DNA from: Acetobacteraceae bacterium
GTDB taxonomy: Bacteria > Pseudomonadota > Alphaproteobacteria > Acetobacterales > Acetobacteraceae
Assembly: GCA_027488195.1 (NCBI GenBank)
Contig: JAIYCD010000034.1
Span: 1 to 37,160, forward strand
Length of the DNA stretch: 37,160 bases
Reading direction: 5' to 3'
Shown: piece after piece, positions 1,894 to 36,172 of the stretch
How the letters are laid out: every line of letters starts with the position of its first letter
Numbering within the stretch: the stretch's first letter is position 1
Program-made: the position numbers and the translations under genes
The notes under the pieces: model-generated
Seen by the model: only the letters and a program-made list of their open reading frames with translations
The model's database searches: none
Told to the model about the DNA's origin: nothing

Positions 1894-3156
1894 TCAGGCG
1901 GCGCGCGCCAGCTCCGTCAGCCCTTGCAGAAGCTTGGTGGGGCTGGGCGTGGCGAAGCGCTGGGCGGCGGCGCACGCCGCCGCATGACGCGGCCCGGCCG
2001 CCGCGAAATCCGCCAGGGCGGCGGCCCAGCCGCACACGTCCCGCGGGTCGAGCAGCTCCGCGAAGCCCGTGACATATTCCCGGTGCGCCGGAATGTCGGA
2101 CGCGATGACCGGCACGCCCGAGGCCAGCGCCTCATGCACCGGATAGTCGAAGCCTTCCTCCAGCGAGGGAGCCAGCACCGCCATGGCGCCGCGCAGGAGG
2201 CGCGCCATGGCGTGGTCGCTCAGTCCTTCGGCACGCAGCAGCTGCACGCCGGCCGGCATCGCCCCCAGCATGGCCAGCACCTCCGCCCCATCAAGGCCGG
2301 ACGCGCCCGCCAGGATGATGTCGAAGTCGCGCGGCCCGCCCATGATGCGCGCGGCCTCGGCCAGCAGCGCGAGATTCTTGCGCGCGGTGATGAGGCCCGG
2401 AACCAGGAAGTAGCGTCGGCCCGCGTGGGGACGCGGCGCGCGCTCGGCGAAGAGTTCCGCCACCGGCGGCGCGATGACGTCGATGTGCGCGAAGCGCAGC
2501 CCGTGCATGGCCGCCGTCTCCAGGATGCGCGCGCGGGAGGCGGCGGAGTTGGTGACGATGCGCACCGGGCGCTCGCCCAGGTGGCGGAGCATGCGGCGGA
2601 AGCGCTGGTCGCTGCCGGGTGCCGCGAAGTTGGGGCGGCGCAGCGGGATGTCGTCATGCAGGTAACAGAGCAGCCGCGCCGTGCGGGACAGCGCGGCGAA
2701 GAGCTTCGCATCGTGCAGGTTGCGGTGCGAGAGGTTCAGATAGGCGCGGCCCTGCAAGGCCTCGGGCTCTTCCGGCCGCAGGGCGCCGCGGCGATAGAGC
2801 AGCCCGGCCAGCAGGGTGCGGCCGAGATCCACGAGTGGCACCTGCCGGTCGGCGAGGCGCGCGCGGGCGGGCGGGAAGGCCACGGCATCGCCTTGCAGAT
2901 AGGCCGCGACGCGCCGGCACGCGGCATCGCCCGGATGGCCCGACCAGCGGGCGGCCGCGCCCTCGACCAGGCGGCGCGCCATGGTGGGCTTGAGGCCACG
3001 GACCACGCCGCCATCGGTGAAGACGAAATGCGCCGAGGGCTCCTCGCGCAGCAGGTGCTGCGCCATGGCCAGCTCCAGCCGGTCGATGCCGCCTGGCGCC
3101 GAGCGCACGGCACGCCACAGCAGGCGCGAGACGTCGAGGGCGATGGCGATGGTCAC
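1894..3156 (-). CDS. Glycosyltransferase, GT4/GT-B family
   Basis: A 420-residue GT-B fold glycosyltransferase. The C-terminal domain carries the GT4 signature EEGFDYPVHEALASG (E-x7-E near residues 331-340), followed by GVPVIASDIPAHREYV, the nucleotide-sugar binding region. No signal peptide or transmembrane segment is evident, so it is probably cytosolic or membrane-peripheral. The GTG start at 3156 overlaps the TGA of the upstream short Rieske-like gene by 4 nt (GTGA), making it the last gene of a minus-strand operon that begins with an SDR at 7153. In that setting it may transfer a sugar onto the lipid or amino-alcohol made by the divergent PKS locus. Sugar donor and acceptor are unknown. 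Confidence 0.85.
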   Translation of the reverse strand: MTIAIALDVSRLLWRAVRSAPGGIDRLELAMAQHLLREEPSAHFVFTDGGVVRGLKPTMARRLVEGAAARWSGHPGDAACRRVAAYLQGDAVAFPPARARLADRQVPLVDLGRTLLAGLLYRRGALRPEEPEALQGRAYLNLSHRNLHDAKLFAALSRTARLLCYLHDDIPLRRPNFAAPGSDQRFRRMLRHLGERPVRIVTNSAASRARILETAAMHGLRFAHIDVIAPPVAELFAERAPRPHAGRRYFLVPGLITARKNLALLAEAARIMGGPRDFDIILAGASGLDGAEVLAMLGAMPAGVQLLRAEGLSDHAMARLLRGAMAVLAPSLEEGFDYPVHEALASGVPVIASDIPAHREYVTGFAELLDPRDVCGWAAALADFAAAGPRHAAACAAAQRFATPSPTKLLQGLTELARAA

Positions 3157-3389
3157 GCGGGCTCGTCCGGCCCATTGCCGCGCCCGGCCTGGCGCGGCCG
3201 GACGGAGCGGTGTGCGCAGCGCTGGATGAGGACCGGGCGGCCGCCCAGCGTGGTCCGGAGGCAGTCATCCTCCCGCGGCAGTTCCGAGGTGACACCCACC
3301 AGCGCCCACACCGCGCCAAGCCGCGCCCGCCCGGCCGCGAAACCCTGCGGATCATGCAGCGCAGCTAGGTTGAGGTCAGGCTCCGCCAT
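3153..3389 (-). CDS. Short Rieske-oxygenase-like fragment, probably truncated
   Basis: Only 78 residues. The middle (VWALVGVTSELP, then a TTLGGRPVLIQR stretch) resembles the beginning of the Rieske [2Fe-2S] domain of ring-hydroxylating oxygenase alpha subunits. It then jumps to CAHR and ends. A working Rieske site needs C-x-H and a second C-x2-H about 17-20 residues later. Here only the first pair is present, and the segment that normally separates the VLIQR strand from the first Cys is missing. No continuation in another frame was found, so cluster binding is unlikely. It is held in the operon: its ATG lies inside the end of the upstream GNAT-like gene (14-nt overlap) and its stop overlaps the glycosyltransferase start. 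It could be a remnant kept for translational coupling or a small new protein. Confidence 0.5.
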   Translation of the reverse strand: MAEPDLNLAALHDPQGFAAGRARLGAVWALVGVTSELPREDDCLRTTLGGRPVLIQRCAHRSVRPRQAGRGNGPDEPA

Positions 3390-4011
3390 GGCGCGTCTCC
3401 GGTGAGAGCGTGATGGTCAGGCGTTCGTAATCCCCCGCCGTCGCCATCAGGAGCCGCGTGAGCGAGACGGGTCGCGCCACCACCGGCACCGCGCCCGCGC
3501 GCCGCACCAGCGCGCGGATCGCCGGGCGGCGGATCTCCATGTCGAGGCTGGCATAGCCGAGGCGCGTCGCCGCCTCCACCGCCGCGGCCATCAGCGCGCC
3601 GCCCACATCGCGCCCCCGCTTGTGGCCGCGCCAGGGCTTCAGCACGTCGAGCCCGTAGATGTAGGCGCCGCCCGGGCGCGGCCGGGTGCGCGCCTCGATC
3701 CAGGAGAACACCGCCCAGGCGTGCAGCCCGCGCCGCCAGCCCTGGCAGCGGATGAAGTCGCCCGGGCCGGGCGCGAAGGGCCCGCGCCCCGCATGTTTCA
3801 GGCTCAGATACCCCGCCAGCTCACCCCCCACCGTGGCCACCAGGAAGCGGTCCGCGCGCATGCCGGGCCGGAACAGCGCGTGGCGCCCGGCGGCATCGCC
3901 CAGCAGCGCCGCAAGGCCGGCGCGGCCGGTGGCGGCGAGGTCCAGCACCTGGTCGGCCAGCGGCCCGGGCGTCAGCGGGCCGACGACCACGCGGGCCTCA
4001 GAAACTGTCAT
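3376..4011 (-). CDS. GNAT-like acyltransferase
   Basis: A 211-residue protein with the pattern of the GNAT acyl-CoA N-acyltransferase fold. A strand RFLVATVGGELAGYLSLKH is followed by YIYGLDVLKPWRGHKRGRDVGGALMAAAVEAA, where the R-G-x-x-x-G-x-x-L pattern fits the pyrophosphate-binding loop of motif A, then YASLDMEIRRPAIRALVRRAGAVPV as motif B. GNAT proteins move acyl groups from acyl-CoA or acyl-ACP to amines. In this operon an amino lipid or amino alcohol is a natural candidate substrate, which is inference. The ATG at 4011 lies 14 nt inside the end of the upstream acyltransferase gene, and its own end overlaps the next gene by 14 nt. No close named homologue is recognised. Confidence 0.7.
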   Translation of the reverse strand: MTVSEARVVVGPLTPGPLADQVLDLAATGRAGLAALLGDAAGRHALFRPGMRADRFLVATVGGELAGYLSLKHAGRGPFAPGPGDFIRCQGWRRGLHAWAVFSWIEARTRPRPGGAYIYGLDVLKPWRGHKRGRDVGGALMAAAVEAATRLGYASLDMEIRRPAIRALVRRAGAVPVVARPVSLTRLLMATAGDYERLTITLSPETRHGGA

Positions 4012-4903
4012 CGAGCCAGAACCATTGCTCCAGATGCTCCAGGATCACCGGCTCGATCACGCCGTTCAGGAAGCTCACATCGTCGAGCAGGCCGGTGGAG
4101 TCCTTCGGCAATTCGATCACGTCGCTGAAATTGACCCGGAAATGGGCCTCCGGCAGGCGGGTGACGTGGCAGAGCACGATCGTCGCATTGGCCCGCCGCG
4201 CGAGCTTGGCGGCGATGGCGAGGTTGCCCTCCGCATGGGGCGGGCGGCCGAAGAGGGGCGCCATCAGCTGGCCGCCGCGCGCCTCATCCACGAAGATGGC
4301 GAGCAGCCCGCCCTCCTTCACCTCCTTGTAGGCGGCGCGCACGCCGCCGTGGTCCATGCTGAGATAGCGCAGGCCGTTGCGGCGGCGCAGGTCGTTGATG
4401 ACCCAGGTCTGGCCGCGCGTCTCCCACGCGATGGGCGCGCAGGCGGCACTCATGCCGACGGCCTTCAGCCCCTCGAGCATCACCTCCCAATTCCCGGTAT
4501 GCAGGCACAGCGCCACGATCCCGCCGCGCTTGCGGATTGCCCTGGCGCGCTCGGGATTGGGCAGCTCGATCCGCCCGGCGGCCATGTAGCGGCCGATGCT
4601 CGGCGTCTCCCCGATGTAGCGGGCGATATTGTCGAGGAAGGCATCCACCCAGGCCTCGATCTCAGCCTCGGTCGCGGAGGGGCGGTGGCGCTTCAGATTG
4701 GCCCGCGCCCGCTCCACCACCCAGGGCCGCTCGCGCCGGATATAGGCGATGATGCCGGAGGTGCCGAGGCGCGAGCCAAGGTCGATCGGCATGTGCCGGA
4801 ACACCAGGTATTGCGCGATCTCCCAGGCATCGAGCAGCCAGTTGCGCAGCGTGGGCGCCCGGCGGTCGGGCAGGGTGGCGGCGGGGTCGGCCTCCTCCCT
4901 CAT
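3998..4903 (-). CDS. LpxL/HtrB-like lysophospholipid acyltransferase family protein
   Basis: A 301-residue member of the LPLAT superfamily, lipid A late-acyltransferase branch (about 300 residues is usual). The catalytic H-x4-(D/E) motif is present as CLHTGNWE (H135, E140), and the typical ending EHLEQWFWLDDSF matches the PEQWFW terminus of LpxL-like enzymes. These proteins transfer an acyl chain from acyl-ACP or acyl-CoA to a hydroxyl or amine at the inner membrane. It may be a spare lipid A acyltransferase. Its place in a P450/SDR/glycosyltransferase operon opposite a PKS argues instead that it acylates the locus product, for example N- or O-acylation of a sphingoid-like base. The ATG start overlaps the P450 stop (ATGA). 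Confidence 0.85.
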   Translation of the reverse strand: MREEADPAATLPDRRAPTLRNWLLDAWEIAQYLVFRHMPIDLGSRLGTSGIIAYIRRERPWVVERARANLKRHRPSATEAEIEAWVDAFLDNIARYIGETPSIGRYMAAGRIELPNPERARAIRKRGGIVALCLHTGNWEVMLEGLKAVGMSAACAPIAWETRGQTWVINDLRRRNGLRYLSMDHGGVRAAYKEVKEGGLLAIFVDEARGGQLMAPLFGRPPHAEGNLAIAAKLARRANATIVLCHVTRLPEAHFRVNFSDVIELPKDSTGLLDDVSFLNGVIEPVILEHLEQWFWLDDSF

Positions 4904-6294
4904 GCCCGCCGCTCCAGACGGGCCAGGATGGGCGCGCGGGGGCGCAGCGAGAGGCGGCAGACCGGATCGGCGCGGAAACCCTCGGCCAGTCGGAGCCGGA
5001 AGGCGCGGGCCACCGCGGCGAGGCAGAGGATCGCCTCGGTCAGTCCGAAATTCAGCCCGGCGCAGATGCGCGGCCCGGCCGAGAAGGGAATGTAGCTATA
5101 GGGCACTGGCGCACCTTCGAGAAAACGCTCCGGACGAAAATGCATGGGCTTGTCCCACAAATCGGGCGAGCGGTGCAGGATCCAGGGCACCACCAGCACG
5201 AGAGCATCCTTCTCCACCGCGATGCCTCCGACCTGCGTCGCCTCACGCGCCTGGCGGGGCAGGATGGGCACGGGCGGGTAGAGGCGCAGCGCTTCCTCGA
5301 TCACCGCGCGGGCATATGGTAGTCGGGCCATGTCCTCGGCTGTGGGCTCGCGGTCACCCAGGACGCTGTCCAGCTCGGCATGGAGCCGCGCCTCCGCCCA
5401 GGGCGCCTTGGCCAGGAGATAGAAGGCCCAGGTCAGCGTCGCCGCCGTGGTCTCGTGCCCGGCCATGAAGATGGTCGCGGCCTCGTTGCGGAGCGCCTGC
5501 ATGTCGAGGCCGAGCTCGGGGCTGCGCTGCATGCGCCGCACCAGCATATCCACCATCGAGCCATGCTCGCCCCGGCCGGCGACATGCTCGGTGATCACAT
5601 GCTCCACCACGCGATGCACCTCGGCGATGGCCTCGCGCATGGCCCGGCCGCGGCCCACCGGCCAGCCCTCGGCCGCGCCCAGGAAGAAGGGCAGGTTGAA
5701 GCTGTCGATCCCGGCCTGGTAGCGGGCGAAGCCCTGGACGATACCGGCCAGCGCGCCCTCCCCCAGCCGCGTGCCGAAGATGGAGCGCGCGATGATCTGC
5801 GCCGTCAGCTCGGCCATCGCCGGCAGCAGGCTGATGTCCTGGCCATCGCGCCAGCCGGCCAGCATCTCGGCTGCGGCGCCGGTCATCATGGGGGCGTAGA
5901 AGGGCACTTGCGTCTTGTGCGCGATGTCGGCCACCAGGGGCCGCCGCCGGCGCCAGGTTTCGCCATCCGAGATGAAGAGCCCGTCGCCCAGCAGGGGCGT
6001 GAGGGCGCGGCGCATCATGGCGCCCTTGCGCTCGAACCGCTCGGCGCCGGTGACGAAGACCGCCTTGATGGAGGCCGGGTCGTTGAAGACGCAGACCTGG
6101 CGGCGCAGCAGCGGGTAGGCGAAGTCCCGCGCCGCGTAGCTCTCCCGCGTCCAGAGGCCGAGCAGGCTGTGCCGCGCCATGAGAGCCAGGCGCAATCCCC
6201 CCGGCGGCTCCGCAAGGGGCTGCGGATGCGCGGGGATGAGCCAGTCCGGCCCCGCCTCCTCGATGATCGGCGGCTGGAGGGAGAGGCGCTTCAC
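4900..6294 (-). CDS. Cytochrome P450
   Basis: A soluble-type bacterial P450 of about 464 residues. The I-helix oxygen-activation motif AGHETT is near residue 277, the K-helix ExxR motif lies in EEALRLYPP near 331, and the haem-binding loop FSAGPRICAG carries the thiolate Cys at about 411. The frame stays open to 6411, but those extra residues are a shadow of the SDR gene. GTG at 6294 lies one base after the SDR stop (6298-6296) and begins VKRLSLQPPIIEEAG, a credible N-terminus. The enzyme needs ferredoxin and reductase partners that are not encoded in the window. By position it probably hydroxylates the polyketide or amino-alcohol chain made by the divergent genes, as P450s do in fumonisin biosynthesis. 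The site of oxidation is unknown. Confidence 0.92.
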   Translation of the reverse strand: MKRLSLQPPIIEEAGPDWLIPAHPQPLAEPPGGLRLALMARHSLLGLWTRESYAARDFAYPLLRRQVCVFNDPASIKAVFVTGAERFERKGAMMRRALTPLLGDGLFISDGETWRRRRPLVADIAHKTQVPFYAPMMTGAAAEMLAGWRDGQDISLLPAMAELTAQIIARSIFGTRLGEGALAGIVQGFARYQAGIDSFNLPFFLGAAEGWPVGRGRAMREAIAEVHRVVEHVITEHVAGRGEHGSMVDMLVRRMQRSPELGLDMQALRNEAATIFMAGHETTAATLTWAFYLLAKAPWAEARLHAELDSVLGDREPTAEDMARLPYARAVIEEALRLYPPVPILPRQAREATQVGGIAVEKDALVLVVPWILHRSPDLWDKPMHFRPERFLEGAPVPYSYIPFSAGPRICAGLNFGLTEAILCLAAVARAFRLRLAEGFRADPVCRLSLRPRAPILARLERRA

Positions 6295-6295
6295 G

Positions 6296-7153
6296 TCAGC
6301 GGGAATCCTCGGGGTGCCGGCGCAGCAGCCTCCGCTGCGCCGCCTCCAGATAGCGCGCCCAGGGCCGCCCGGCCCAGAGCAGCAGGCTGGCACCGAAGCC
6401 CGGTGCCACATGCCTGGCGCCCCGATCGGCAGCGGCCAGGATGCGCCCGGCGACGAAACCGGGGGTGAGCGGCCGGCTGCCCGCCGCGAAGCGGGCCGTG
6501 AAGGCCGGGCGCCGGGCGCTCTCCTCGGCCAGTTGCGGCGTATCCGTGTCGGGCGGGAAGGCGGTCAAGACCCGCACGCCATGCGCGCCCAGCTCGAGCG
6601 AGAGGATGTCCCCCAAGCCCCGGAGCGCCCATTTCGAGGGCGCATAGGCCGCATAGCCCGCGAAGCCGCCCAGCGCCGCGGCCGAGGAGACGAGGATGAC
6701 CTGGCCACGCCCGGCCCGCGCCATGGAGGGCGCCAGGGCGTGCACCACATGCAGGCTGCCCAGGTAGTTGGTGCGCCACTGGGCCTCATGCTCGGCGAGC
6801 GGCTGGTCGAGGAAGCGGCCGGGAAGGGCGATCCCGGCGCTGGCCACCACCCAGCCGGGCGGGCCCAGGCGGCCCAGCAGCGCCGTCATGGCGGCCGCGA
6901 CGGCGTCGGCATCCCCCACATCCAGCGCCAGGGTCTCGGTGCCGCCTCCCAGCCGCAAGGCCGCGGCGGCGAGCCGCCCGGGATCCCGGGCCAGCAGGAC
7001 GACATGGCACCCGCGGCCCAGCAAACCCGCGGCCAGCGCCTCGCCCATGCCGCTGGACCCGCCGGTGACCAGGGCCCAGACGCGCCCCGGCGCGGTGGCA
7101 GGGACCGACTTTTTCGCTTGTTCATGCGAGCCGGGATGCGCCTCGGTCACCAT
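6296..7153 (-). CDS. Short-chain dehydrogenase/reductase, 3-ketodihydrosphingosine-reductase-like
   Basis: A classical SDR of 285 residues. The nucleotide-binding glycine motif TGGSSGMG is at 30-37, the catalytic serine lies in VSSAAA (about 156-157), and Y-x3-K appears as YAPSK (Y170, K174). Classical SDRs of this length include 3-ketodihydrosphingosine reductase (KDSR) and fungal Fum13, which reduce the 3-keto group left by an alpha-oxoamine synthase. That is the reaction expected here, though general SDR similarity does not prove it. An in-frame ATG exists at 7180, but the ATG at 7153 has an AGGAG Shine-Dalgarno five bases upstream and is preferred. It is the first gene of the minus-strand tailoring operon and is divergent from the PKS gene. 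Confidence 0.85.
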   Translation of the reverse strand: MVTEAHPGSHEQAKKSVPATAPGRVWALVTGGSSGMGEALAAGLLGRGCHVVLLARDPGRLAAAALRLGGGTETLALDVGDADAVAAAMTALLGRLGPPGWVVASAGIALPGRFLDQPLAEHEAQWRTNYLGSLHVVHALAPSMARAGRGQVILVSSAAALGGFAGYAAYAPSKWALRGLGDILSLELGAHGVRVLTAFPPDTDTPQLAEESARRPAFTARFAAGSRPLTPGFVAGRILAAADRGARHVAPGFGASLLLWAGRPWARYLEAAQRRLLRRHPEDSR

Positions 7154-7414
7154 GCAGGCTCCTGGGCCGAGAGGTCCCATCGACGGGAGCGGAAATCATC
7201 AAAACTTGAAACAAACCGAAGAAATAGCGTATCCGAAAGCGTCGGGAACGCAAAGCGTTGTGCTCCCATCATTCCGGTCGGGCAGTCTGTGAGAAAGCGG
7301 TCGATCGCAACAGGGCCGTCCGGAAAACGCCATGCCAGGCTGCGCGGGAAGGCCTGGCCCGCCGCGGACCGGGCGTGACCTGGCGGCCCTGCCCCGCTGC
7401 TTCAGACCCGGCGC
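7154..7414. promoter_or_regulatory. Divergent intergenic region between tailoring operon and PKS operon
   Basis: About 260 bp separate the SDR start from the longest PKS frame. The part around 7196-7240 is clearly more A/T-rich than the surroundings. Rightward, TTGAAA (7206-7211) and TATCCG (7230-7235) are 18 bp apart and form a weak sigma-70-like pair. No clear operator palindrome was found. Both arms of the locus must be driven from here, so it is the logical control point. The promoter assignment itself is tentative. Confidence 0.35.
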
Positions 7415-10400: not shown

Positions 10401-13400
10401 TCGACATCCTGCGCGCGTTGAGCCTTGAGCAGGCGCAGGAGCTCAGCATCGTCTGGCACGAGGCGGAGCACATGGTCGAAATCCGCGCCCGAACGCGGCT
10501 CGAGGCCGGGGCCGCCTTCACCCTGCATGCCCGCTGCACCGTGCTGGTCGAGCCCGTCGCCGCTCCCCATCCGCAGCCGCTGAGCGCGGAAGGCACGCTG
10601 CATGACGCGGCCGCCATCTACGCGGCGACGGCCGCCTGCCGGCTCGATTATGGCGGCGCGTTCCGCGTGGCGCGCAGCGCGCGCGTGACCGGCGCGGACG
10701 TCGTCACCGACATCGCGGGCGTCACGCCCGATCTCGGCTTCTTCACCAACATCCAGGTGATCGACCCGCCGAGCTATGACGCCGCCTTCCACGGCATCTT
10801 CCTCGGCATCGCGCAGAAACCCGGCGAGGTGGTGGGGGAATTGCCGGTCCGCATCGGGCGCCTCTCGATGTTCCGCCCCGGCGAGCCGGTGACGCGCTCG
10901 GTGGCGCGCCTGACGCGCCAGACCTCCGATGCCCGGGTCCTCGACATCGACCTGGTCGCCGCCGATGGGCGCCTGGTGGCCCGCGGCGAGGGCGTGGTGA
11001 TGCGCCGCGTCGTCTTCTCGAGCTGGCGCGAGGCGGACCGGATCATCCGGAACCGCTTCCTGCCCTGGCGCGCCGGCCCGGCCGAACTCGGCCCCGCCAT
11101 GGCCGAGGCCCTGAACCGCAGCATCCCCGGCCCCGACCTGACAGCACGGCCCGCCCTCATCGGCCTCGCGCTCGACATCGCCGGGCATGTGGTGAACAGG
11201 GTCACCGAGGGCCGCGCGCCGGAGCGCCATCCCGGACTGGCGGGGCTGATCGCGCCCGAGGCGCGCGTCATCTGGCGGGCACTGAACGATGCCCGGCAGG
11301 AGGCCGGCCAGCTTGCGGCCGCACAGGCGCCGCAAAGGCCGGGCGGGGTGCTGGCCGAGGCGCTGACCGACCCTGGCGCGGCACTCGCCGCCTTCGCCGC
11401 CCGCCACCCGGCAGCCAGCGCCGACCTGCGTCTCGCGCTGCACGCGCTCGAGGCGCTGCCGGCCCTGCTCGTCACCGGCCAGGAGGCGCCGCCCAACGCG
11501 GACCTGCAGGATGCGGTGATGACCGCCTCGCTCTTCGCGGCGCCGAGCCTGGATGCGCTTTGCGTCGTGCTCGACCGGCTGCTGGAATCCCACCGGGAGG
11601 ACCGGCTGCGCGTCCTGCTGCTCGAGCCCGGCCTGGGCGGGTTGCTGCCGCGCCTGCTGCCGCGCCTGCGGGCGGGTGGGATCTCGCTCGCCATCCTCGC
11701 CGCCGATGTGGAGGGCGCGGAGCGCCTGCTCGCCCGCGCCGGCGCGGCGCGCGCCATCCCCGTGCACGGGCCGGATGCCGAGCTGGGCGGTGCCGCCTTC
11801 GATCTCGCCCTCTGTGCCGCGGTCACGCCCCTCGATGCCGGGCAGCCGAGCGCGCTCGACCTGCTGAGCGGCCTGGGCGACGACGCACCGCCCCTGCTCG
11901 TGGCCATCCCGCCGCACCACCCCGCGATCGACGTGCTGCACGCGGCAACCCCCGGCTGGTTCCGCTTCTCACACACGCCGGAGCTGCCTGTGGGCGCCTG
12001 GCCCTACCCCTCCGAGGCGGATGAGGCACTGACCCAGCATGGCTTCGCCGTCCTGCGCCAGGCGAGCCTGCCGGCCTCGGGCGACCGCCTGGTCTTCGCG
12101 CAACTGCTGCGCCGGTGGGCCGAAAGCCCGCCCGCGGCGCCGTTCTCGCTCAGCCTCCTGGCGGGCGGCGCGGCCGAAGCCCAGGGCCTGCAGACCCGGT
12201 TGATCGGCTTCGCGCCAGATCTCACGCTCAGCCCGGCGGAAAGCGCCGAATGGGCCGCCGCCGCCACCACCGCCCTGGCCGAGGGCATGCCCGTCATCAT
12301 CGAGACCGGCGCGGCGGCCGGATCGGACGAAGCGGCCATGCTGGCGGCGCGCATGCTGCGCCTGCGCGAACTCGCCATCGCGCTCAGCGACGGCGAGGCC
12401 AATGCGCGCCTCTATGTCGCCCTCGAACTCGCCCCGGGCGCCCGGCCCACCGCCCTTTCGCAGGCGATGGCCGGCTATGCCCGCTGCCTGATGAATGAGT
12501 TCCCGACGCTCGAGGTCTGCCTGCTGCAATGGGCGCCCGAGGCGACGGCCGAAATGCTGGAGGCCGCCTTGCGCCGCCACCTGGCCGAGCCGTTGGTGGA
12601 GCGCGAGATCTGGCTCACGGCCGGGGGCGTGCTGGTGCCGCGCGCCGCGCACCGCCGCGAGAGCATGCCGCGCGAGCCGGTGGCGGGGGAGCGCAGCCTG
12701 CTCGGCATCGGCGCGCGTGGCCTGGATGACTTCACCTGGTCCATCGCGCCGCGCGCCGCACCCGCACCGGGCGAAGTCGAGATCCGCGTGGCGGCGACCG
12801 GCCTGAATTTCCGCGACGTGATGCTGGGCCTGGGCGTGCTGGATTCCGAGATCCTGGGCGAGGGGCTGACCAGCGGTTCGCTCGGCTTCGAATTCGCGGG
12901 CCATGTGGTCCGTGCTGGCGCGGGCGCGCCGGGCTTCGAGGTGGGCGACGCGGTGATGGGTTTCGGCGCCCAGGCCTTCGCCTCCCATCTGACCCTGCCC
13001 GCCGATCGGCTGTTCCATCTCGGTCCGAACCTGCCGGCCGAGGCGGCGGCAGCGATCCCCGTGGCCTTCGTGACGGCCTGGTTCGGGCTGATCGAGCGGG
13101 CCGGGCTGAAGCGCGGCGAGACGGTGCTGATCGAGGGTGCGGCCGGCGGCGTGGGCATGGCGGCGGTACAGATCGCCAAGGTGCATGGCGCGGTCGTGGT
13201 GGCCACCGCCGGCACGGCGGAGAAGCGCGCCCTGCTCCGGCACCTGGGCGCCGACCATGTCGTGGATTCCCGCGCGGCCGATGTCGAGGACCGCATCCGC
13301 GCGGCGGTGGGCGGCGTGGACGTCGTGCTGAACTCGGTCGCGGGCGATGCGATGCGCGCGGCGCTGCGGCTGGTGAAACCCTTCGGCCGCTTCGTCGAGC

Positions 13401-14797
13401 TCGGCAAGCGCGACTTCTTCGAGAATACGCGCCTGGGCCTTCGGCCCTTCGTGAAGAACATCACCTATGTGGGCGCGGATATCGACCAGCTGCTGGCGCA
13501 TGACCCGGCCGCGGTGCGGCGGATGATGAGCGTCATCATGGTCCTGTTCGAGACGGGGCGCCTCAGGCCGATCCCCTACCTCGCCTTCGAGGGTGGCCGT
13601 GTGGCGGACGCCTTCCGGCTGATGCAGGCCTCGGGCCACCTGGGCAAGATCCTGGTGCGGCCGAGCCTGGTCGCGCAACCGGTGCCGCCGCCGCCAGGCC
13701 GCTTCCGCCCGGCTCCGGGCGTTCACGTGGTCCTGGGTGGGACCGGCGGCTTCGGCCTCGAGACCGCGCTCTGGCTGGCCGCGCAGGGGGCGGGCTGCGT
13801 GGTTGCCGTCTCCCGCCGGGGCGCGGTGGATGAGGCGATGGCCGGGCGCGTGGAACAGGCCCGGGCCGCCGGCGTGGATTTCCGCGTCGAGGCGCTGGAC
13901 ATCACCCGGCCCGGGGACGTGGCCGCGGCCTTCGCGCGCTGGCGCGCGGAGCTCGGGCCCATCGCCGGCGTGATCCACTGCGCCATGGTGCTGGATGACG
14001 GCATGATCCTGGGACTGACGGGGGAGAAGATCGCGCGCGTGCTGGGCCCCAAGGTCACCGGAATGCGCGCGCTGGAAGCCGCCACCGCGGGCGATGCGCT
14101 GCAATACCTTGTCGCCTATTCCTCCTCGACGACCTTCGTCGGCAGTCCCGGGCAATCGGCCTATGTGGTGGGCAATGCCTTCCTGGAGGGGGCGGTGGAA
14201 GGCCTCAGGGCGCGCGGCGTGCCGGCGCTGGCGGTCTGCTGGGGTGCGATTTCCGACGTCGGCGTGATCGCGCGCACGCGGGGCCTGGCCGAACGGCTGC
14301 GGATGGCCACCGGGGTCTCGGGCGTGACCTCGGCCGAGGCGCTCGCTCATCTGGGCACGCTGTTGCCCGATCCGGCGGCGGCGCCGGCGGTCAGCGCCTA
14401 TTCGGTGATCCGCTGGTCACCTGCCGCGAAGAAGCTCGCCGTCCTCCGCTCGCCCTATTTCGCGAATGTCTTCACCGAGCAGGGCCAGGGCACCGCCGCG
14501 GCCGGGGAGGAGACGCTCGACGTCTCTGCCCTTTCGCCGGAGGCGGCGGCGGATGCGCTGCTGGCCCTGGTGCGCGACGAGGTGGCGCGCATCCTGCGCC
14601 TGCCGACCGAGGCGGTGGAGCCCGACCGCCCGTTGATCGATATCGGCCTCGACTCCCTGATGGCGCTGGAGCTGCGCCTGGGGGTGGAAAAGCGCACGGG
14701 GGTTGAATTGCCCCTGACGACCATGGCGGGCAACCGCTCCATCCGCGATCTGGTCACGCGGATCGTGGGAAGCCTGCATGCCCAGCGGTTTCAATAA
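7415..14797 (+). CDS. Highly reducing type I polyketide synthase, one module, no thioesterase
   Basis: 2460 residues. Domains in order (numbered from TTG 7415): KS about 22-445 (C191 in DTACSSS, H340, H378); AT 555-857 (S648 in GHSVGE; YPFHS specificity region); DH 932-1216 (H961 in HRVDGQVILP, D1122 in YDAAFH); a methyltransferase-like region about 1370-1560 whose SAM loop is degenerate (LEPGLGG), probably inactive; structural pseudo-KR about 1577-1758; ER 1773-2084 (GAAGGVG); KR 2104-2295 (GGTGGFG, LDD at 2193-2195, Y2250, N2254), the LDD suggesting a B-type hydroxyl; ACP with S2414 in GLDSL. A single full reductive set suggests iterative use, as in fungal HR-PKS or mycobacterial Mas. No release domain exists; the next gene is an alpha-oxoamine synthase. 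TTG 7454 (residue 14), five bases after GGAAA, is a better-supported alternative start. The KS contains a 15-bp tandem repeat. Confidence 0.95.
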   Translation: MRAAHLNSLLETALILNLPTPLNILGLAVRLPGAENLQELWALLEAGGSSVQDISPPDRWRPERFLSTDPGARGTAYTFAGGYLRDGMSFDAAAFGMSRREAEQMDPQQRVLLEVAWEALEDAGIAPSRLMGREVGVFMGASATDYADVPLLDVSALDAHFMTGNSLAMVSNRISYAYDLKGPSLTLDTACSSSLVALAQAAAALEAGRIELAIVGGVNMLSSPAPFIGFSRAGMLSPTGRCRPFSAKGDGYVRAEGAVVLILARADAGLANAGLANAGLANAGLGVSPPRAVLHAIGVNSDGRTNGISLPSLTGQRDLLVALYRQSGISPDALAFVEAHGTGTRVGDPIEARAIGESLGRHRRAALPIGSVKSNIGHLESASGMAGMAKLILSLEQRRYPATLYLEELNPDIDVAGLGLAPAAQAVELAASGPLLAGLCNYGFGGTNAHAIIGSAPEPALAAAEAPAARYLVISAHSKAALRQLVPAYLDPIERLGAAAVASAAQAGRDLLPHRLVLDLAQGGAQSGSAAQALVEPEVPRPDLAMGEAIARQARVAFVFSGNGAQWPGMGRAAYRGNATFRVAFDEWAARIRAAGGTCPLETMLAEDVAQRLVATSAMQPLLFTIQLALCAALAAEGLRPDLVLGHSVGEVAAAAVSGALTPDDAARLIVVRSAAQEAVHGLGGMAVLACDAARALEIIADAGTTDVEIAARNAPGSTTLSGGTQGLGEVLRVARRARIAFVTLDVAYPFHSRILDPGRAETIAALEGLSPGRTRTPMISSATGALVDGTELDGAYWWANIRAPVLFQDAVTVALERADLFIEIGPRPILGSLIAEVARHVGARAATLATLTQGTRGEEADPIARILLEAVVKGAIPGGATPGGAPQATSPGSLAIRQLPLMRWDRQTYLIAATPEAYGVYGPSHGGPPLHPLIGSRMAPGGAEWRHMLSVATQPFLAGHRVDGQVILPATAYMEMALAVGREVYGTGRLRLLDLDILRALSLEQAQELSIVWHEAEHMVEIRARTRLEAGAAFTLHARCTVLVEPVAAPHPQPLSAEGTLHDAAAIYAATAACRLDYGGAFRVARSARVTGADVVTDIAGVTPDLGFFTNIQVIDPPSYDAAFHGIFLGIAQKPGEVVGELPVRIGRLSMFRPGEPVTRSVARLTRQTSDARVLDIDLVAADGRLVARGEGVVMRRVVFSSWREADRIIRNRFLPWRAGPAELGPAMAEALNRSIPGPDLTARPALIGLALDIAGHVVNRVTEGRAPERHPGLAGLIAPEARVIWRALNDARQEAGQLAAAQAPQRPGGVLAEALTDPGAALAAFAARHPAASADLRLALHALEALPALLVTGQEAPPNADLQDAVMTASLFAAPSLDALCVVLDRLLESHREDRLRVLLLEPGLGGLLPRLLPRLRAGGISLAILAADVEGAERLLARAGAARAIPVHGPDAELGGAAFDLALCAAVTPLDAGQPSALDLLSGLGDDAPPLLVAIPPHHPAIDVLHAATPGWFRFSHTPELPVGAWPYPSEADEALTQHGFAVLRQASLPASGDRLVFAQLLRRWAESPPAAPFSLSLLAGGAAEAQGLQTRLIGFAPDLTLSPAESAEWAAAATTALAEGMPVIIETGAAAGSDEAAMLAARMLRLRELAIALSDGEANARLYVALELAPGARPTALSQAMAGYARCLMNEFPTLEVCLLQWAPEATAEMLEAALRRHLAEPLVEREIWLTAGGVLVPRAAHRRESMPREPVAGERSLLGIGARGLDDFTWSIAPRAAPAPGEVEIRVAATGLNFRDVMLGLGVLDSEILGEGLTSGSLGFEFAGHVVRAGAGAPGFEVGDAVMGFGAQAFASHLTLPADRLFHLGPNLPAEAAAAIPVAFVTAWFGLIERAGLKRGETVLIEGAAGGVGMAAVQIAKVHGAVVVATAGTAEKRALLRHLGADHVVDSRAADVEDRIRAAVGGVDVVLNSVAGDAMRAALRLVKPFGRFVELGKRDFFENTRLGLRPFVKNITYVGADIDQLLAHDPAAVRRMMSVIMVLFETGRLRPIPYLAFEGGRVADAFRLMQASGHLGKILVRPSLVAQPVPPPPGRFRPAPGVHVVLGGTGGFGLETALWLAAQGAGCVVAVSRRGAVDEAMAGRVEQARAAGVDFRVEALDITRPGDVAAAFARWRAELGPIAGVIHCAMVLDDGMILGLTGEKIARVLGPKVTGMRALEAATAGDALQYLVAYSSSTTFVGSPGQSAYVVGNAFLEGAVEGLRARGVPALAVCWGAISDVGVIARTRGLAERLRMATGVSGVTSAEALAHLGTLLPDPAAAPAVSAYSVIRWSPAAKKLAVLRSPYFANVFTEQGQGTAAAGEETLDVSALSPEAAADALLALVRDEVARILRLPTEAVEPDRPLIDIGLDSLMALELRLGVEKRTGVELPLTTMAGNRSIRDLVTRIVGSLHAQRFQ
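8213..8272 (+). repeat. 15-bp in-frame tandem repeat inside the KS domain
   Basis: Four consecutive 15-bp units (8213-8227, 8228-8242, 8243-8257, 8258-8272) read gatgctgggctggcc or aatgctgggctggcc, the last diverging after gctggg. They encode repeated (D/N)AGLA pentapeptides in the KS loop just before the conserved PRAVLHAIGVNSDG strand. Other KS domains have a short, variable loop here, so the expansion should be tolerated. The middle two units are identical, which points to recent slippage or unequal exchange. Confidence 0.9.
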
Positions 14798-15028
14798 TGG
14801 GAATATGTCCAGCGATAATCTGTAATACGAGGCCCGTCGAGCAGCGAGAGACGCAAGCCGATTATGCGGCTTCGCTTGGTAAATGCTGCACTGCACGAAA
14901 TTCTTGTGCCATCTTTCCGGTCTTGGCAGGGCAAGCATCATCATTCGCTTTGCTGAATCTCGAAAACACGATAAGTCAGGCGTAGGCTGGGGAACAATCT
15001 CGACAAAATCCTTACTAATACGAAAGGA
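14798..15028. promoter_or_regulatory. A/T-rich intergenic region between PKS and alpha-oxoamine synthase
   Basis: About 230 bp with much lower G/C than the genes on either side. It holds a perfect 6-bp hairpin AAGCCG-ATTATG-CGGCTT (14855-14860 / 14867-14872) with no following T run, and an AAAGGA purine tract at 15023-15028 just before the synthase frame. A 62-codon frame (14797-14985) overlaps the PKS stop but lacks the third-position GC bias of real genes here and matches nothing recognised. The region could carry a separate promoter or an RNA element. No convincing -35/-10 pair was found. Confidence 0.35.
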
Positions 15029-16441
15029 TTGTTCATTTCCCGTTCAGATGGAATGAGATATACGAAAGTCTTCTCGCGAGACCGCCTTCTGATGAATCTC
15101 AGGCTGACCCCGACGGAGCTGGATGTGGCGGGCTTGGGCCGTGAAGCGGCCGAACCGTCTCACCCAGCGGAATTTCCTTCCGCTCTGGTCAACGACCGGA
15201 GGCAGCCCCGCGCCCGCGTTCTGCGTCAGGACGCGCCCAAGCATGACCTCTCTTTCGAGAGCCTGCCCGCCTATCGCGAGATCCTGCTGGAGCGTCAGGT
15301 CGGCCCTGCACTCGGCTTCACCAACCCGTATTACCGCGTTCACGATGGTCGCGCCGGCACCAGCACCTCGATCAATGGCCGGGCGCTGCTGAACTTCTCC
15401 AGCTACGACTATCTCGCGCTGAACGGGCATCCGGAAGTCCTGGCCGCGCATGAGGAGGCGGCCCGCGCCCATGGCACCAGCGTCTCGGCCAGCCGCATCA
15501 CCTCGGGCGAAAGGCCGGTTCACCGCGCGCTCGAGGCGGCGCTGGCCGATGTGTACGAGGCCGAGGCAGGCGCGCTCTTCGTCAGCGGCCACGCGACGGC
15601 CGCCTCGGTGATCGAGACGATCCTCGGCCCGAAGGACCTCATCATCCATGACTCGCTGATCCACAATTGCGTGGTGGTCGGCGCCCAGGGCGCGCGCTGC
15701 CAGCGCAAATCCTTCCGTCACAACGACCTCGACGACCTCGAGAGCTACCTGACGCTGACGCGCCACCTGTTCGAGCGCGTGCTGATCGTGACCGAGGGCC
15801 TGTTCTCCATGGATGGCGACGGGCCGGACATGTTCCGCCTCGCTGAGATCAAGGAGCGCTTCCAGGCCTGGCTGATGGTGGATGAGGCGCATTCGCTGGG
15901 CGTGATCGGCGCCACCGGCCGCGGCATCGCCGAGCATTCGGGCATCGATCCCCGCCGGGTGGATATCTGGTTCGGCACCCTCTCCAAGGCCCTGGTCGGC
16001 TGCGGCGGCTATGTCTGCGGCAGCCAGGTGCTCATCGATATCCTGAAGGCCCGTGCCCCGGGCCTGGTCTATAGCGTGGGCATGCCGGCGCCGGTCGCCG
16101 CCGCCTCCCTCAAGGCGCTGGAGATCATGCGGCGCGAGCCAGGGCGCGTGGCGGCGTTGCAGGCCAACGGCACCTATTTCCTCGAGGGTGCGCGTGCCCG
16201 TGGCCTCGATGTGGGGCCCAGCTGGGGCTTCGGCGTGACACCCATCATCCTCGGCAGCGACATCCGCACCTTCGCCATGGCGCAGGAGCTGGAGCGGATG
16301 GGGATCTACAGCTTCCCCGTCAGCTCCCCAGGGGTGCCCAAGGGAACGTCGCGCTTGCGCTTCTTCCTGTCGGCCGCGCACAAGACCGATCAGATCGACA
16401 CCGCCCTCGACGCCGTAGCGACGATCCTCGATCGGTCGTGA
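15029..16441 (+). CDS. PLP-dependent alpha-oxoamine synthase (serine palmitoyltransferase/AONS family)
   Basis: A fold-type I PLP enzyme of the alpha-oxoamine synthase family, which joins an acyl thioester to an amino acid with loss of CO2 (AONS, KBL, ALAS, SPT, Fum8, PigH). Family landmarks: AHGTSVSASRITSGE, VSGHATAASVI, the cofactor-aspartate region DEAHSLGVIGATGRGIAEHSG, the Schiff-base lysine K320 in GTLSKALVGCGG, and a C-terminal RLRFFLSAAH. A 70-100-residue N-terminal extension precedes the core. Placed directly after a PKS ending in an ACP, it probably offloads the polyketide as an alpha-amino ketone; the amino acid used cannot be told. The start is unclear: TTG 15029 abuts AAAGGA too closely, an in-frame ATT at 15035 would be ideally spaced, and ATGs occur at 15053 and 15092. 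CqsA/LqsA signal synthases belong to the same family and are an alternative role. Confidence 0.9.
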   Translation: MFISRSDGMRYTKVFSRDRLLMNLRLTPTELDVAGLGREAAEPSHPAEFPSALVNDRRQPRARVLRQDAPKHDLSFESLPAYREILLERQVGPALGFTNPYYRVHDGRAGTSTSINGRALLNFSSYDYLALNGHPEVLAAHEEAARAHGTSVSASRITSGERPVHRALEAALADVYEAEAGALFVSGHATAASVIETILGPKDLIIHDSLIHNCVVVGAQGARCQRKSFRHNDLDDLESYLTLTRHLFERVLIVTEGLFSMDGDGPDMFRLAEIKERFQAWLMVDEAHSLGVIGATGRGIAEHSGIDPRRVDIWFGTLSKALVGCGGYVCGSQVLIDILKARAPGLVYSVGMPAPVAAASLKALEIMRREPGRVAALQANGTYFLEGARARGLDVGPSWGFGVTPIILGSDIRTFAMAQELERMGIYSFPVSSPGVPKGTSRLRFFLSAAHKTDQIDTALDAVATILDRS

Positions 16442-17139
16442 CGCCTCGTCGTGTGAATGGCGGTTTTCTCGCCAAGCCGGAGGCGCGGGCTCTCGATGCG
16501 TTGGTGAAGCGGGTTCCGGCCTCGATCGGGCCCGACATGCTCACACGCATCGGTATCTTCGGGGCGGTGGTTGGCGCGCTTGGCTTTGCCCTGGGGCTGA
16601 CGACACCCCTCTCGCTCGCGCTGGTCTTCATCGGTTTCACGCTGAACTGGCTGGGCGATTCCCTGGACGGCAAGGTGGCGCGCCACCGCGGCGTCCAGCG
16701 CAAGGTCCAGGGCTTCGTGCTCGACAACGGGGTGGACCTGATCGCCTACACCCTGCTGGCGCTCGGTTTCGCGGCCTCGGGCCTCGTCTCGCTGCCCATC
16801 CCCTTCATCCTGCTGTCCTTCTACATGCTGCTGAGCAACCTGGCCCTGGCCCGCATGATGGTGACCGGCGTACACAGCCTCGCCCTCGATTCCGTCGGCA
16901 CGACGGAGCTGCGCGTCGCCTTCCTGCTGCTGGCCGTGCTGCTCTTCCTGTTTCCCGGCGCCTTCCAGGCGATCGTCCCGGGCCTCGGCGCCACGGTGCT
17001 GGATGGACTTTCGCTGCTTTGGGCCGGCATCATGCTGGTGAATTTCGGCTTCGTCCTGCGCCGCGACATCCGCAGCGCCGGCCTGGCCGACCAGCGGCAG
17101 GCACGCGCGGCCGCCGAAGCGGAAAGGACCGAGGGTTGA
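16438..17139 (+). CDS. CDP-alcohol phosphatidyltransferase family protein
   Basis: A 233-residue integral membrane enzyme with several hydrophobic helices and all signature residues of the CDP-alcohol phosphotransferase family: D74-x2-D77-G78-x2-A81-R82...G92-x3-D96-x3-D100. There are nine residues between AR and G rather than the usual eight. Family members move a phospho-alcohol or phosphatidyl group from a CDP-activated donor to an alcohol, as in PgsA, PssA and Pcs. The GTG start overlaps the alpha-oxoamine synthase stop by 4 nt (GTGA), so both products are made together. This suggests the amino-alcohol is an acceptor or donor partner and that a phospho head group is added at the inner membrane. 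General phospholipid synthesis cannot be excluded. Confidence 0.85.
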   Translation: MTPRRVNGGFLAKPEARALDALVKRVPASIGPDMLTRIGIFGAVVGALGFALGLTTPLSLALVFIGFTLNWLGDSLDGKVARHRGVQRKVQGFVLDNGVDLIAYTLLALGFAASGLVSLPIPFILLSFYMLLSNLALARMMVTGVHSLALDSVGTTELRVAFLLLAVLLFLFPGAFQAIVPGLGATVLDGLSLLWAGIMLVNFGFVLRRDIRSAGLADQRQARAAAEAERTEG

Positions 17140-17570
17140 GCATCTGGCGCCAGCACACCACGCCCGAGGAGATCCACAGCCGCGCCGCCGGCTCGGTCAA
17201 CGGGCTGCTCGACATCCGCATCACGGAGATCGGCCCTGACTTTTTGCGCGGCGAGATGCCAGTGGATGAGCGTCACGTCCAACCCTTCGGGATCATCCAT
17301 GGCGGGGTCTCGGTCGTGCTGGCCGAGACCTTGGGCAGCGTCGCCTCCATGATGGCCTGCGATCCCGGCTTCATGGCGGTCGGCCTCGAGATCAACGCGA
17401 ACCATCTGCGCCCGCTGCCCAAGGGCGGCCGCGCCTTCGGCCTTTGCACGCCCGTCCGCATCGGCCGCAGCGTGCATGTCTGGAACATCGAGCTGCGCCG
17501 CGACGATGGCGAACTCTTCTGCGTCTCCCGCCTCACCACCTCCATCATCGAGAGGAAGCCCACCAAGTGA
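17136..17570 (+). CDS. Hotdog-fold thioesterase (PaaI/MenI-like)
   Basis: A 144-residue single hotdog domain. The motif QPFGIIHGGVSVVLAETLGS supplies the HGG loop (H55-G57) and the catalytic Glu (E64) typical of MenI/EntH/PaaI thioesterases, which hydrolyse acyl-CoA or acyl-carrier-protein thioesters. The frame is open upstream, but TTG 17136 overlaps the previous TGA and has an excellent Shine-Dalgarno (GGAAAGGA), so it is chosen. EntH-type enzymes free mis-primed carrier proteins in natural-product assembly lines. An editing role for the PKS ACP, or removal of stalled chains, fits this operon. It may instead act on CoA esters of the final lipid. Confidence 0.85.
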   Translation: MSIWRQHTTPEEIHSRAAGSVNGLLDIRITEIGPDFLRGEMPVDERHVQPFGIIHGGVSVVLAETLGSVASMMACDPGFMAVGLEINANHLRPLPKGGRAFGLCTPVRIGRSVHVWNIELRRDDGELFCVSRLTTSIIERKPTK

Positions 17571-18565
17571 CCAAACCCAAGATTGCCCTGATCGGCACTG
17601 GCGGCACCATCGGCTCGCTCGGCCGCGGTCCTTTCGACATCGCGGACTACGCGACGCTGGGCAAGGTCATGGATGCCGAGCAGCTGCTGGCCTATTGGCC
17701 GCAGGTGCATGAGGTGGCCGAGGTGGTCGCGGTGAAATACGCGGCCGTGCCCTCCACCGCGCTCGGCCCCAAGGAATGGCTGGAGCTGGTGCGCCTTTGC
17801 GACCAGGTGGTGGCCGATATCCCGGGGCTGGATGGCATCGTCATCACCCATGGCACGGCGACGCTGGAGGAGACGGCCTATTTCCTCTCACTGACCGTGA
17901 AGGTCGAGGTGCCGGTGGTGCTGGTCGGCGCGCAGCGGCCCTCCTCCGGCCTCTCCTCCGATGCGGGCATGAACCTGGCCAATGCCTGCCGCGTGGCGGG
18001 TGACAAGCGCGCGCGCGGCCTCGGCGCCCTGGTGCTGCTGAATGACGAGGTGCATGCGGCGCGCGAGGTGACGAAGACCAGCACCTCCCGCTTGCAGACC
18101 TTCCGCAGCCCGGATTTCGGCTGCCTCGCCCATGCCGACGCCGATGCCATCGCCTGGTATCGCCGCCCGCTGCGCAAGCTGGGGCGCGAGACGGAGTTCG
18201 ATGTGCGTGGCCTCAGCGCGCTGCCGCGGGTGGATATCGTCTATTGCTATGCCGGCGCCGATGGCGCGGCGGTGGAAGCCTTCATCGCCGCTGGCGCGCA
18301 GGGCCTGGTTTCGGCCGGCTTCGCGCCGAGCTTCGTGACACCCGCGCTGGCCGAGACGATGACGGCCGCCATGGCCGCGGGCTTGCCCATCGCCGCCAGC
18401 ACGCGGGCCGGCTCGGGGCGGATGTTCCACACGACGCGGATGCAGGAGGCGGGGTTTCTCAACGCCGACAACCTCAATCCGCAGAAGGCGCGCATCCTGC
18501 TCATGCTGGGGCTGACCGTGACGAAGGACCGGGCGGAGCTGAACCGCATTTTTGCCGAATACTGA
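17567..18565 (+). CDS. L-asparaginase/glutaminase family amidohydrolase
   Basis: A 332-residue bacterial-type asparaginase (usual length 320-350). The first catalytic Thr motif IGTGGTIGS lies at the N-terminus, the second motif ITHGTATLEETAYFL follows near residue 93, and VLVGAQRP and LNDEVHAAREVTK are also conserved. No signal peptide precedes the first strand, so it is cytoplasmic. The GTG start overlaps the thioesterase stop (GTGA), making it the fourth gene of a tightly coupled set beginning with the alpha-oxoamine synthase. Why an asparaginase should be coupled to lipid or polyketide genes is unclear. It might adjust the amino-acid pool used by the synthase or hydrolyse an amide in the product, or it may simply be a passenger. 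A hairpin terminator follows. Confidence 0.9.
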   Translation: MTKPKIALIGTGGTIGSLGRGPFDIADYATLGKVMDAEQLLAYWPQVHEVAEVVAVKYAAVPSTALGPKEWLELVRLCDQVVADIPGLDGIVITHGTATLEETAYFLSLTVKVEVPVVLVGAQRPSSGLSSDAGMNLANACRVAGDKRARGLGALVLLNDEVHAAREVTKTSTSRLQTFRSPDFGCLAHADADAIAWYRRPLRKLGRETEFDVRGLSALPRVDIVYCYAGADGAAVEAFIAAGAQGLVSAGFAPSFVTPALAETMTAAMAAGLPIAASTRAGSGRMFHTTRMQEAGFLNADNLNPQKARILLMLGLTVTKDRAELNRIFAEY

Positions 18566-36161: not shown

Positions 36162-36172
36162 CGCCGCACCCC

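Follow-up and report, generated by a model that had tools for sequence, protein, structure and literature searches.

We identified a gene cluster in an Acetobacteraceae bacterium that probably makes a sphingolipid by a polyketide route, with the same core as the bacterial SgaABC system and the rkp capsule loci. The cluster is located on a stretch of 37,160 nucleotides (contig JAIYCD010000034.1 of assembly GCA_027488195.1, here called the window), which is a whole contig of the draft genome G000 (88% complete, 6% contamination). A polyketide synthase (PKS), an alpha-oxoamine synthase (AOS) and a CDP-alcohol phosphotransferase (CDP-AT) form one arm, and a short-chain reductase (SDR), a cytochrome P450, an LpxL-like acyltransferase, a GNAT-like protein and a GT4 glycosyltransferase form the other. 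The predicted product is an acylated, P450-hydroxylated sphingoid lipid with a very long chain and a phospho and/or sugar head group. The core recipe is known, but what is new here is a branch that is detached from the capsule and has other finishing enzymes.

Gene content of the cluster

Pfam was applied to 30 of the 138 listed frames of the window. The features of the cluster are as follows (positions in the window).

1894-3156, minus strand: GT4 glycosyltransferase (Pfam Glyco_trans_1_4, 50.9 bits), probably accessory and at the cluster edge
3376-4011, minus strand: GNAT-like protein (weak Pfam match, 20.5 bits against a cut-off of 20.7)
3998-4903, minus strand: LpxL-like (LPLAT) acyltransferase (Pfam PF03279, 88 bits; HTGNWE)
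4900-6411, minus strand: cytochrome P450 (Pfam p450, 257 bits; haem loop FSAGPRICAG, AGHETT)
6296-7180, minus strand: SDR of the 3-ketodihydrosphingosine reductase (KDSR) type (Pfam; TGGSSGMG, YAPSK)
7181-7414: divergent intergenic region of 234 nt, presumed to hold the promoters of both arms
7415-14797, plus strand: one-module reducing type I PKS (Pfam; KS-AT-DH-(degenerate MT-like)-ER-KR-ACP)
15029-16441, plus strand: pyridoxal phosphate-dependent AOS, proposed to act like a serine palmitoyltransferase (SPT) (Pfam PF00155; TLSK, DEAH)
16438-17139, plus strand: CDP-AT, nearest to choline/ethanolamine phosphotransferases
17444-18565: type II asparaginase, probably outside the pathway

An earlier note, made from the sequence alone, had called the same two arms. 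Pfam upheld these calls, with only a marginal match for the GNAT-like protein in the divergent arm, and the catalytic motifs are intact.

The PKS-AOS-SDR core

As in SgaABC, the PKS is a single-module reducing enzyme that ends in an acyl carrier protein (ACP) domain and has all catalytic motifs present. The motifs of KS, AT, DH, ER, KR and ACP are intact and are common, with small changes, to 17 aligned relatives. In the MT-like stretch the motif is lost and Pfam gives no match, and a methyl-branched chain was rejected for this reason; from the intact reducing motifs and the lost MT motif a saturated, unbranched chain is therefore expected. The AT motif is YPFH, which by the motif rule fits malonyl-CoA. 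Compared with the PKS of a Sinorhizobium meliloti locus (L125), the window enzyme is 39% identical over 1201 amino acids and 34% identical over the full length.

For the AOS, the best match in the PDB is a serine palmitoyltransferase (1.4e-60). When it was compared with the SPT models of NCBIfam, it scored 264, 245 and 162 bits against cut-offs of 640, 500 and 670 and passed none of them, whereas a canonical SPT of the same order (L177) reached 626 bits against 500. We placed the AOS in a tree of 81 rows, which includes neither PfSgaB nor any identified KBL. The outgroups named by NCBIfam were 5-aminolevulinate synthases (ALAS; L123, L174, L168, L170, L176, L179, L180), four proteins with BioF as best match (L166, L167, L169, L173; partial frames slightly below the cut-off) and the SPT L177, which lies above its cut-off. 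Here, we found that AOS from PKS loci fall into a single supported group (100/99, 59 rows), including the S. meliloti AOS and that of an Acidisoma plasmid (L128), and that this group is separate from ALAS, BioF and canonical SPT. Tree and NCBIfam placement thus reject a misplaced BioF or ALAS. The earlier note had named a grouping with the AONS/KBL housekeeping enzymes as evidence against its proposal; with respect to BioF (the AONS) and ALAS the enzyme stands apart, and the KBL part of that comparison lies beyond this tree. Sequence identity is 44% over 405 amino acids with the S. meliloti AOS and 45-50% with AOS of the same order other than the window-type and G068 rows.

The SDR has its top match, among 19 PDB sequences at E 1e-15, in the 3-ketodihydrosphingosine reductase TSC10 (8jat, 1.1e-22), and it is 36% identical over 247 amino acids to the SDR that follows the AOS in S. 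meliloti. A KDSR-like SDR is thus part of the cluster, as it is in SgaABC. The proposal that a polyketide chain, an oxoamine synthase and a KDSR yield a sphingoid base is well supported by an AOS outside BioF and ALAS, an SDR with TSC10 as best match and the SgaABC precedent.

By likeness to SgaABC, chain building, off-loading with serine and 3-keto reduction are very probably carried out by PKS, AOS and SDR. The PKS would iteratively extend an ACP-bound acyl chain that is saturated, unbranched and probably very long. The AOS would release this chain through a decarboxylative condensation with L-serine, which gives 3-ketosphinganine, and the SDR would reduce this ketone to sphinganine.

Comparison with known systems

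The closest functional precedent is Pseudomonas fluorescens MYb115, for which Peters et al. 2025 (PMC12134224) describe C24-C28 sphinganines made from a two-gene PKS/AOS cluster and, most likely, also phosphoglycerol-sphingolipids. According to the same source, the AOS uses L-serine almost exclusively, a KDSR-like SDR is present in the cluster, and 6,101 clusters homologous to SgaABC are reported. SgaABC and the window share an iterative one-module PKS, an AOS (with SPT activity in SgaABC; PMC12134224) and a KDSR-like SDR; the comparison is based on the gene set and on a relative from a Pseudomonas plasmid (L126), not on the PfSga sequences. Given this precedent and the same kind of PKS gene in the rkp and wcb capsule clusters (PMC3908369, PMC3557214), the remark of the earlier note that it knew of no described bacterial cluster with the full set is not upheld for the core. 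A word search of the main text of PMC12134224 gave no hits for capsul-, wcb, rkp, polysaccharide, P450 or acyltransferase.

In the S. meliloti record L125, the order is PKS, AOS, SDR, a frame of the sulfatase/LTA (lipoteichoic acid)-synthase family and a capsule biosynthesis gene. The record carries no rkp names, and we take it to be the rkp-1 region by its gene order. It is titled pSymB (1-25215), yet it is 3.7 Mb long and contains secD, and looks like a mislabelled chromosome. The window shares with this locus the PKS-AOS-SDR core and an AOS of the same tree group. It differs by the lack, as far as found, of the sulfatase/LTA-synthase-family and capsule biosynthesis genes and by the presence of CDP-AT, P450, LpxL-like, GNAT and GT4 genes instead. 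The product of the rkp-1 region (RkpA/G/H/I/J) is described as a lipophilic molecule that carries or anchors the K polysaccharide (PMC3557214), and the wcb clusters of Burkholderia have been called orthologous to rkp (PMC3908369). A 2025 capsule review (PMC12220298) gave no hits in a word search for 'sphingo', 'polyketide' or 'rhizob'. Our literature searches found no paper that joins PKS-derived sphingolipids with the rkp/wcb capsule lipid, and no description of the P450/LpxL-like/CDP-AT/SDR/GT4 set, although P450, LpxL and CDP-alcohol transferase were not among the search terms.

The canonical SPT pathway of alphaproteobacteria involves the same reaction type as proposed for the window AOS, and in Caulobacter the acyl donor is likewise an ACP (PMC9386255). 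In contrast, the window AOS falls into a separate group and its chain would be supplied by a PKS.

In the fungal fumonisin and sphingofungin pathways, an AOS off-loads the PKS chain and a KDSR-type SDR and P450s follow. The fumonisin logic of the earlier note is better taken as an analogy than as a sign of near relationship: SphA (9pep, one entry in the PDB list, which we take to be the fungal sphingofungin enzyme) scored 82 bits against the window AOS and a bacterial SPT 209 bits, Fum8 not being part of this comparison. The acyltransferase and the enzyme resembling choline phosphotransferase (CPT) are, moreover, bacterial envelope types. PMC12134224 notes SDR homology for FUM13 and SphF.

To place the cluster in its family, we used 80 named AOS loci, which are the best 80 of 583 confirmed ones and for that reason lean towards the window type; 28 of them are shorter than 18 kb. 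A recognised PKS adjoins the AOS in 76 of the 80. Two others (L045, L070) are cut off by a contig end within the AOS or immediately ahead of it, in L104 two recognised genes separate AOS and PKS, and L113 has no recognised PKS. Other plasmids and genomes carry variants. On the mobilizable Pseudomonas plasmid L126 (4353-24919), PKS and AOS occur with genes of the phytanoyl-CoA dioxygenase and LTA synthase families, a GNAT and capsule genes. Paraburkholderia dioscoreae (L127, 10917-11831) has an annotated UDP-3-O-acyl-GlcNAc (LpxC-like) deacetylase between PKS and AOS. The Acidisoma plasmid (L128, 11040-25047) shows the order SDR, AOS, 'sterol desaturase family', glycosyltransferase, capsular genes, LTA synthase and ABC export, with no annotated PKS alongside the AOS. 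Sphinganine hydroxylases belong to the sterol desaturase superfamily, and this protein is perhaps an unrelated enzyme in the role of the P450.

Tailoring enzymes and head group

The catalytic features of the P450, its haem loop and the AGHETT motif, are intact, and hydroxylation of the lipid by this enzyme, on the sphingoid base or on the acyl chain, is rather likely. The LpxL-like protein carries the HX4E motif and the family profile of LPLAT enzymes, and its profile matches include the lipid A acyltransferase 5kn7 (2.3e-18) and a phosphatidylinositol mannoside acyltransferase. It is a second paralogue in addition to the housekeeping LpxL, since a stronger PF03279 copy (163 bits) is encoded elsewhere in G000. 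Of the 11 loci among the 80 that carry a P450, 6 have an LpxL-like gene as well. Bosea sp. AAP35 (L059) has the set of P450, LpxL-like, CDP-AT, SDR and GT4 genes, and two further Bosea loci (L058, L060) have the same set without a recognised LpxL-like gene. We slightly favour the view that this enzyme adds a fatty acyl group (N- or O-acylation), most simply on the amine, to give a ceramide-like lipid. The GNAT-like protein shares 33% identity with the GNAT from a Pseudomonas capsule locus that contains PKS and AOS.

The CDP-AT has the catalytic motif DxxDGxxAR-x9-GxxxDxxxD. Both by sequence profile and by structure match of a model it is closest to CPT and to choline/ethanolamine phosphotransferase (CEPT), and with CPT1/CEPT1 it shares the fold and the CDP-AP motif. 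It differs from them in the spacer after AR, which has 9 residues; the usual CDP-AP spacer has 8. The PF01467 family (CTP_transf_like) has three matches each in G000 and in a related genome (G174), and those of G000 are CoaD, NadD and HldE. We therefore set aside CDP-choline, CDP-ethanolamine and CDP-glycerol as donors on the basis of PF01467, other cytidylyltransferase families not having been searched, and CDP-diacylglycerol is left as the plain donor. Phospho transfer by the CDP-AT is likely, and the chance that the GT4 enzyme adds a sugar is about even. In 8 of the 13 CDP-AT loci, GT4 is the next recognised neighbour of the CDP-AT. CDP-AT and LTA-synthase-like genes never occurred together in the 80 loci (13 and 19 loci, none with both; p=0.03, uncorrected for ancestry). 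Chain length, the order of the tailoring steps, the acylation site, the head group and the cellular location of the predicted lipid are inferred.

Conservation and exchange at one chromosomal site

Judged by the AOS, the named genomes nearest to G000 are drafts of Roseomonas and one Acetobacteraceae draft. G174 has kept all genes from an MFS transporter gene at the left edge through the CDP-AT (66-91% identity; GNAT 85%, GT4 in place with 66%). The cluster of G049 lies in a different neighbourhood and retains GNAT, SDR, PKS, AOS and CDP-AT at 67-81% (GNAT 71%). Since the genes are retained in G174 and, amid other neighbours, in G049, their grouping is not due to chance. For the GT4 and MFS genes no match was found in 40 kb around the G049 cluster, and their membership is thus less certain. 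The P450 and LpxL-like genes of G049 have shrunk to one fused in-frame remnant of 177 amino acids (L132, 1505-2035), which looks like an internal deletion but could be an assembly fault. A 946-amino-acid TIR-LRR-Roc-COR protein adjoins the G049 cluster (L131, 7495-10335).

Six genomes of the same genus have the flank up to the asparaginase in common and then carry a capsule-type PKS-AOS cluster with a Capsule_synth-type gene. At that same site, the window and G174 have CDP-AT, AOS and PKS with the divergent SDR-P450-LpxL-GNAT-GT4 arm. It can be seen that the cassette is swapped at one chromosomal site between the window type and its sister genomes. In the AOS tree, 14 rows of the same order, all from genomes bearing PF05159 (Capsule_synth, the KpsC/KpsS family), form one group (100/100), and the seven window-type rows (100/100) nest among Hyphomicrobiales (for example Bosea, Rhizobium and Beijerinckiaceae), several of whose loci carry P450 and LpxL-like genes. 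The simplest reading is a horizontal replacement of the capsule-type cassette by the window type. Rubritepida flocculans DSM 14296 (L050) carries a P450-SDR-PKS-AOS-CDP-AT set.

Gene boundaries and flanking DNA

The earlier note described nearly all genes as overlapping by 4-14 nt, which was too general. Such overlaps occur at three junctions (GNAT/LpxL 14 nt, LpxL/P450 4 nt, AOS/CDP-AT 4 nt), and three junctions are spaced (GT4-GNAT 219 nt, SDR-PKS 234 nt and divergent, PKS-AOS 231 nt). The P450/SDR overlap of 116 nt vanishes if the P450 begins at GTG 6294, one base past the SDR stop, and judged from the sequence this is probably the true start. The PKS-AOS gap (14798-15028) appears AT-richer than the genes and may give AOS and CDP-AT a promoter or leader of their own. 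The interval of 1894-18565 proposed in the note is right for the enzymes but too long at its end, where it takes in the asparaginase. We rejected the latter as a pathway gene because in the sister genomes it keeps its syntenic position beside another cluster. Farther along the window, there is a transposase-like gene close to the contig end (36173-36835; DUF4096, IS4/5 type) and an open frame of 1528 amino acids in very GC-rich DNA (31938-36524), which has no Pfam match and may be a shadow frame.

The link to capsule genes and its loss

To relate the AOS to capsule synthesis, we called it at E 1e-60 in 199 other genomes of the order. PF05159 was present in 54 of 63 genomes with the AOS and in 42 of 136 without it (p=3e-13, uncorrected for ancestry), and in at least 47 of the 54 genomes carrying both, the two lay no more than 12 kb apart when one PF05159 place per genome was used. 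The AOS genomes without PF05159 are nine (G004, G049, G064, G068, G133, G169, G174, G193, G196). There was no PF05159 match in the genomes G174, G049 and G064, and G000 has one partial match of 36 bits, a protein of 372 amino acids (L124, 459-1577) below the usual KpsC/KpsS strength. A strong match was found in none of 12 CDP-AT genomes, which do not represent 12 independent events since the AOS of L044 and G049 are near-identical; L045 and G064 were counted as one genome, and this genome-wide check covered CDP-AT loci other than L067, L076, L099 and L104. Among the 15 genomes behind the chosen loci, a strong PF05159 match was seen in 0 of 9 with CDP-AT, two of which have weak matches (up to 56 bits), versus 5 of 6 without CDP-AT. 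The Pfam matches of the 30 window frames include no LTA-synthase/sulfatase-family gene, and a similarity search next to the clusters of G174 and G049 found none.

The window type is likely to be independent of the capsule, which does not hold for all CDP-AT clusters. The module descends from the lipid module of rkp/wcb/sga-type loci, which in this order lie mostly beside capsule genes. Because the capsule-type cluster was replaced at its old site and strong KpsC/KpsS matches are missing, the product is probably a free envelope lipid, with its phospho and sugar head group installed by the CPT-like enzyme and GT4.

Alternatively, the sphingoid lipid might be the terminus of an ABC-exported polysaccharide, with a linker made by CDP-AT and GT4 in place of the LTA-synthase-like enzyme and KpsC/KpsS. 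The KpsM/T/E/D-like genes beside CDP-AT loci of Bosea, Novosphingobium, Methylocella and others would fit such an anchor, as would the adjacency of GT4 and CDP-AT and the mutual exclusion of CDP-AT and LTA-synthase-like genes. We consider it unlikely for the window type: the 30 window frames contain no Kps family by Pfam and none was found by similarity beside the G174 and G049 clusters (KpsM/T/E/D were not searched genome-wide), and in G174, G049, G064 and G000 PF05159 is restricted to the 36-bit partial match in G000, as described above.

Canonical sphingolipid and lipopolysaccharide genes

A canonical-SPT profile (E 1e-120) was positive in 66 of 99 other genomes of the order; all 66 matches fall below the curated cut-off of the model, and the SPT of one genome passes a sister model. 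Canonical SPT was found in 6 of 27 genomes with the AOS versus 60 of 72 without it (p=2e-8, uncorrected for ancestry). G000 gave no canonical-SPT match at E 1e-120, and the only further AOS relative that it showed at E 1e-5 was ALAS. All 10 genomes tested possess LpxC as well as a stronger LpxL encoded elsewhere, and a sphingolipid replacing lipopolysaccharide was rejected on these grounds.

Points that weigh against the proposed pathway

Several observations speak against a free, CPT-finished sphingolipid or limit its generality. The source genome is only 88% complete with 6% contamination. The lack in G000 of a PF01467 donor enzyme for CDP-choline, CDP-ethanolamine or CDP-glycerol fits badly with a CPT-like reaction, and the exclusion of CDP-AT and LTA-synthase-like genes, at only p=0.03, may reflect ancestry. 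G093, G036 and G060 likewise have a second, weaker PF03279 copy, so that a second LpxL paralogue alone is not special, and locus L075 has P450 and LpxL-like genes but neither a CDP-AT nor a PF05159 match. As to the capsule link, the 42 of 136 genomes mentioned above have PF05159 without the AOS; of the AOS genomes without PF05159, G169 and G193 are weak AOS matches and G133 and G196 fragmented assemblies. G068, with an AOS of 62% identity and no PF05159, encodes an SDR of the capsule type, and the 20 kb retrieved from it contain no CDP-AT. KpsM/T/E/D-like genes adjoin seven CDP-AT loci (L059, L062, L063, L067, L076, L099, L104), so that a polysaccharide link may hold for the wider CDP-AT group. 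Finally, an AOS that uses glycine or alanine would give another amino-alcohol, a preference that is not readable from the sequence.

A 1-deoxysphingoid or other aminoketone lipid made with an amino acid other than serine is, nevertheless, improbable. The serine test exists for PfSgaB only, and the window AOS shares 45-50% identity with the AOS of its order once the window-type and G068 rows are set apart; on the other hand, a CPT-like enzyme would need a hydroxyl, which serine supplies at C1, and the best solved relative is an SPT. Still less probable is a diffusible, fumonisin-like bioactive aminopolyol, for which P450, GNAT and the adjacent MFS transporter resemble a secreted natural-product cluster and SgaAB has been described as a secondary-metabolite biosynthetic gene cluster (PMC12134224), but the LpxL-like protein, GT4 and the CPT-like enzyme, an integral membrane protein, belong to types known from envelope lipids, no MFS match lies beside the G049 cluster and SphA is only a distant AOS relative.

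Wider reading and significance

Group 2 capsules of E. coli begin on lyso-phosphatidylglycerol with a linker of 3-deoxy-D-manno-oct-2-ulosonic acid (Kdo) that is made by KpsS and KpsC. Tentatively, we suggest that the rkp/wcb capsule lipid is sphingoid, with phosphoglycerol-sphinganine as acceptor of the Kdo linker, and that the window represents this anchor module freed from the capsule. In the capsule loci, PKS, AOS and KDSR would make sphinganine and the LTA-synthase-like protein would add phosphoglycerol; the resulting lipid would mimic lyso-phosphatidylglycerol, and KpsS/KpsC would start the Kdo linker on it. In the window branch, the CPT-like enzyme and GT4 would displace the phosphoglycerol and Kdo steps, and P450 and LpxL-like enzyme would yield a hydroxylated ceramide. 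The phosphoglycerol-sphingolipids of MYb115 would be explained as well, because an LTA-synthase-like gene lies near PKS, AOS and SDR in capsule-type loci.

If true, the cluster would lead to complex sphingolipids without the use of canonical SPT. This would connect the PKS-derived bacterial sphingolipids described in 2025 with the lipid of rhizobial K antigens and Burkholderia capsules, and the gene neighbourhoods offer a concrete, testable identity for the rkp/wcb capsule lipid. In the window branch, the module would have been retooled outside capsule synthesis, and sphingolipid surveys based on canonical SPT would miss such bacteria.

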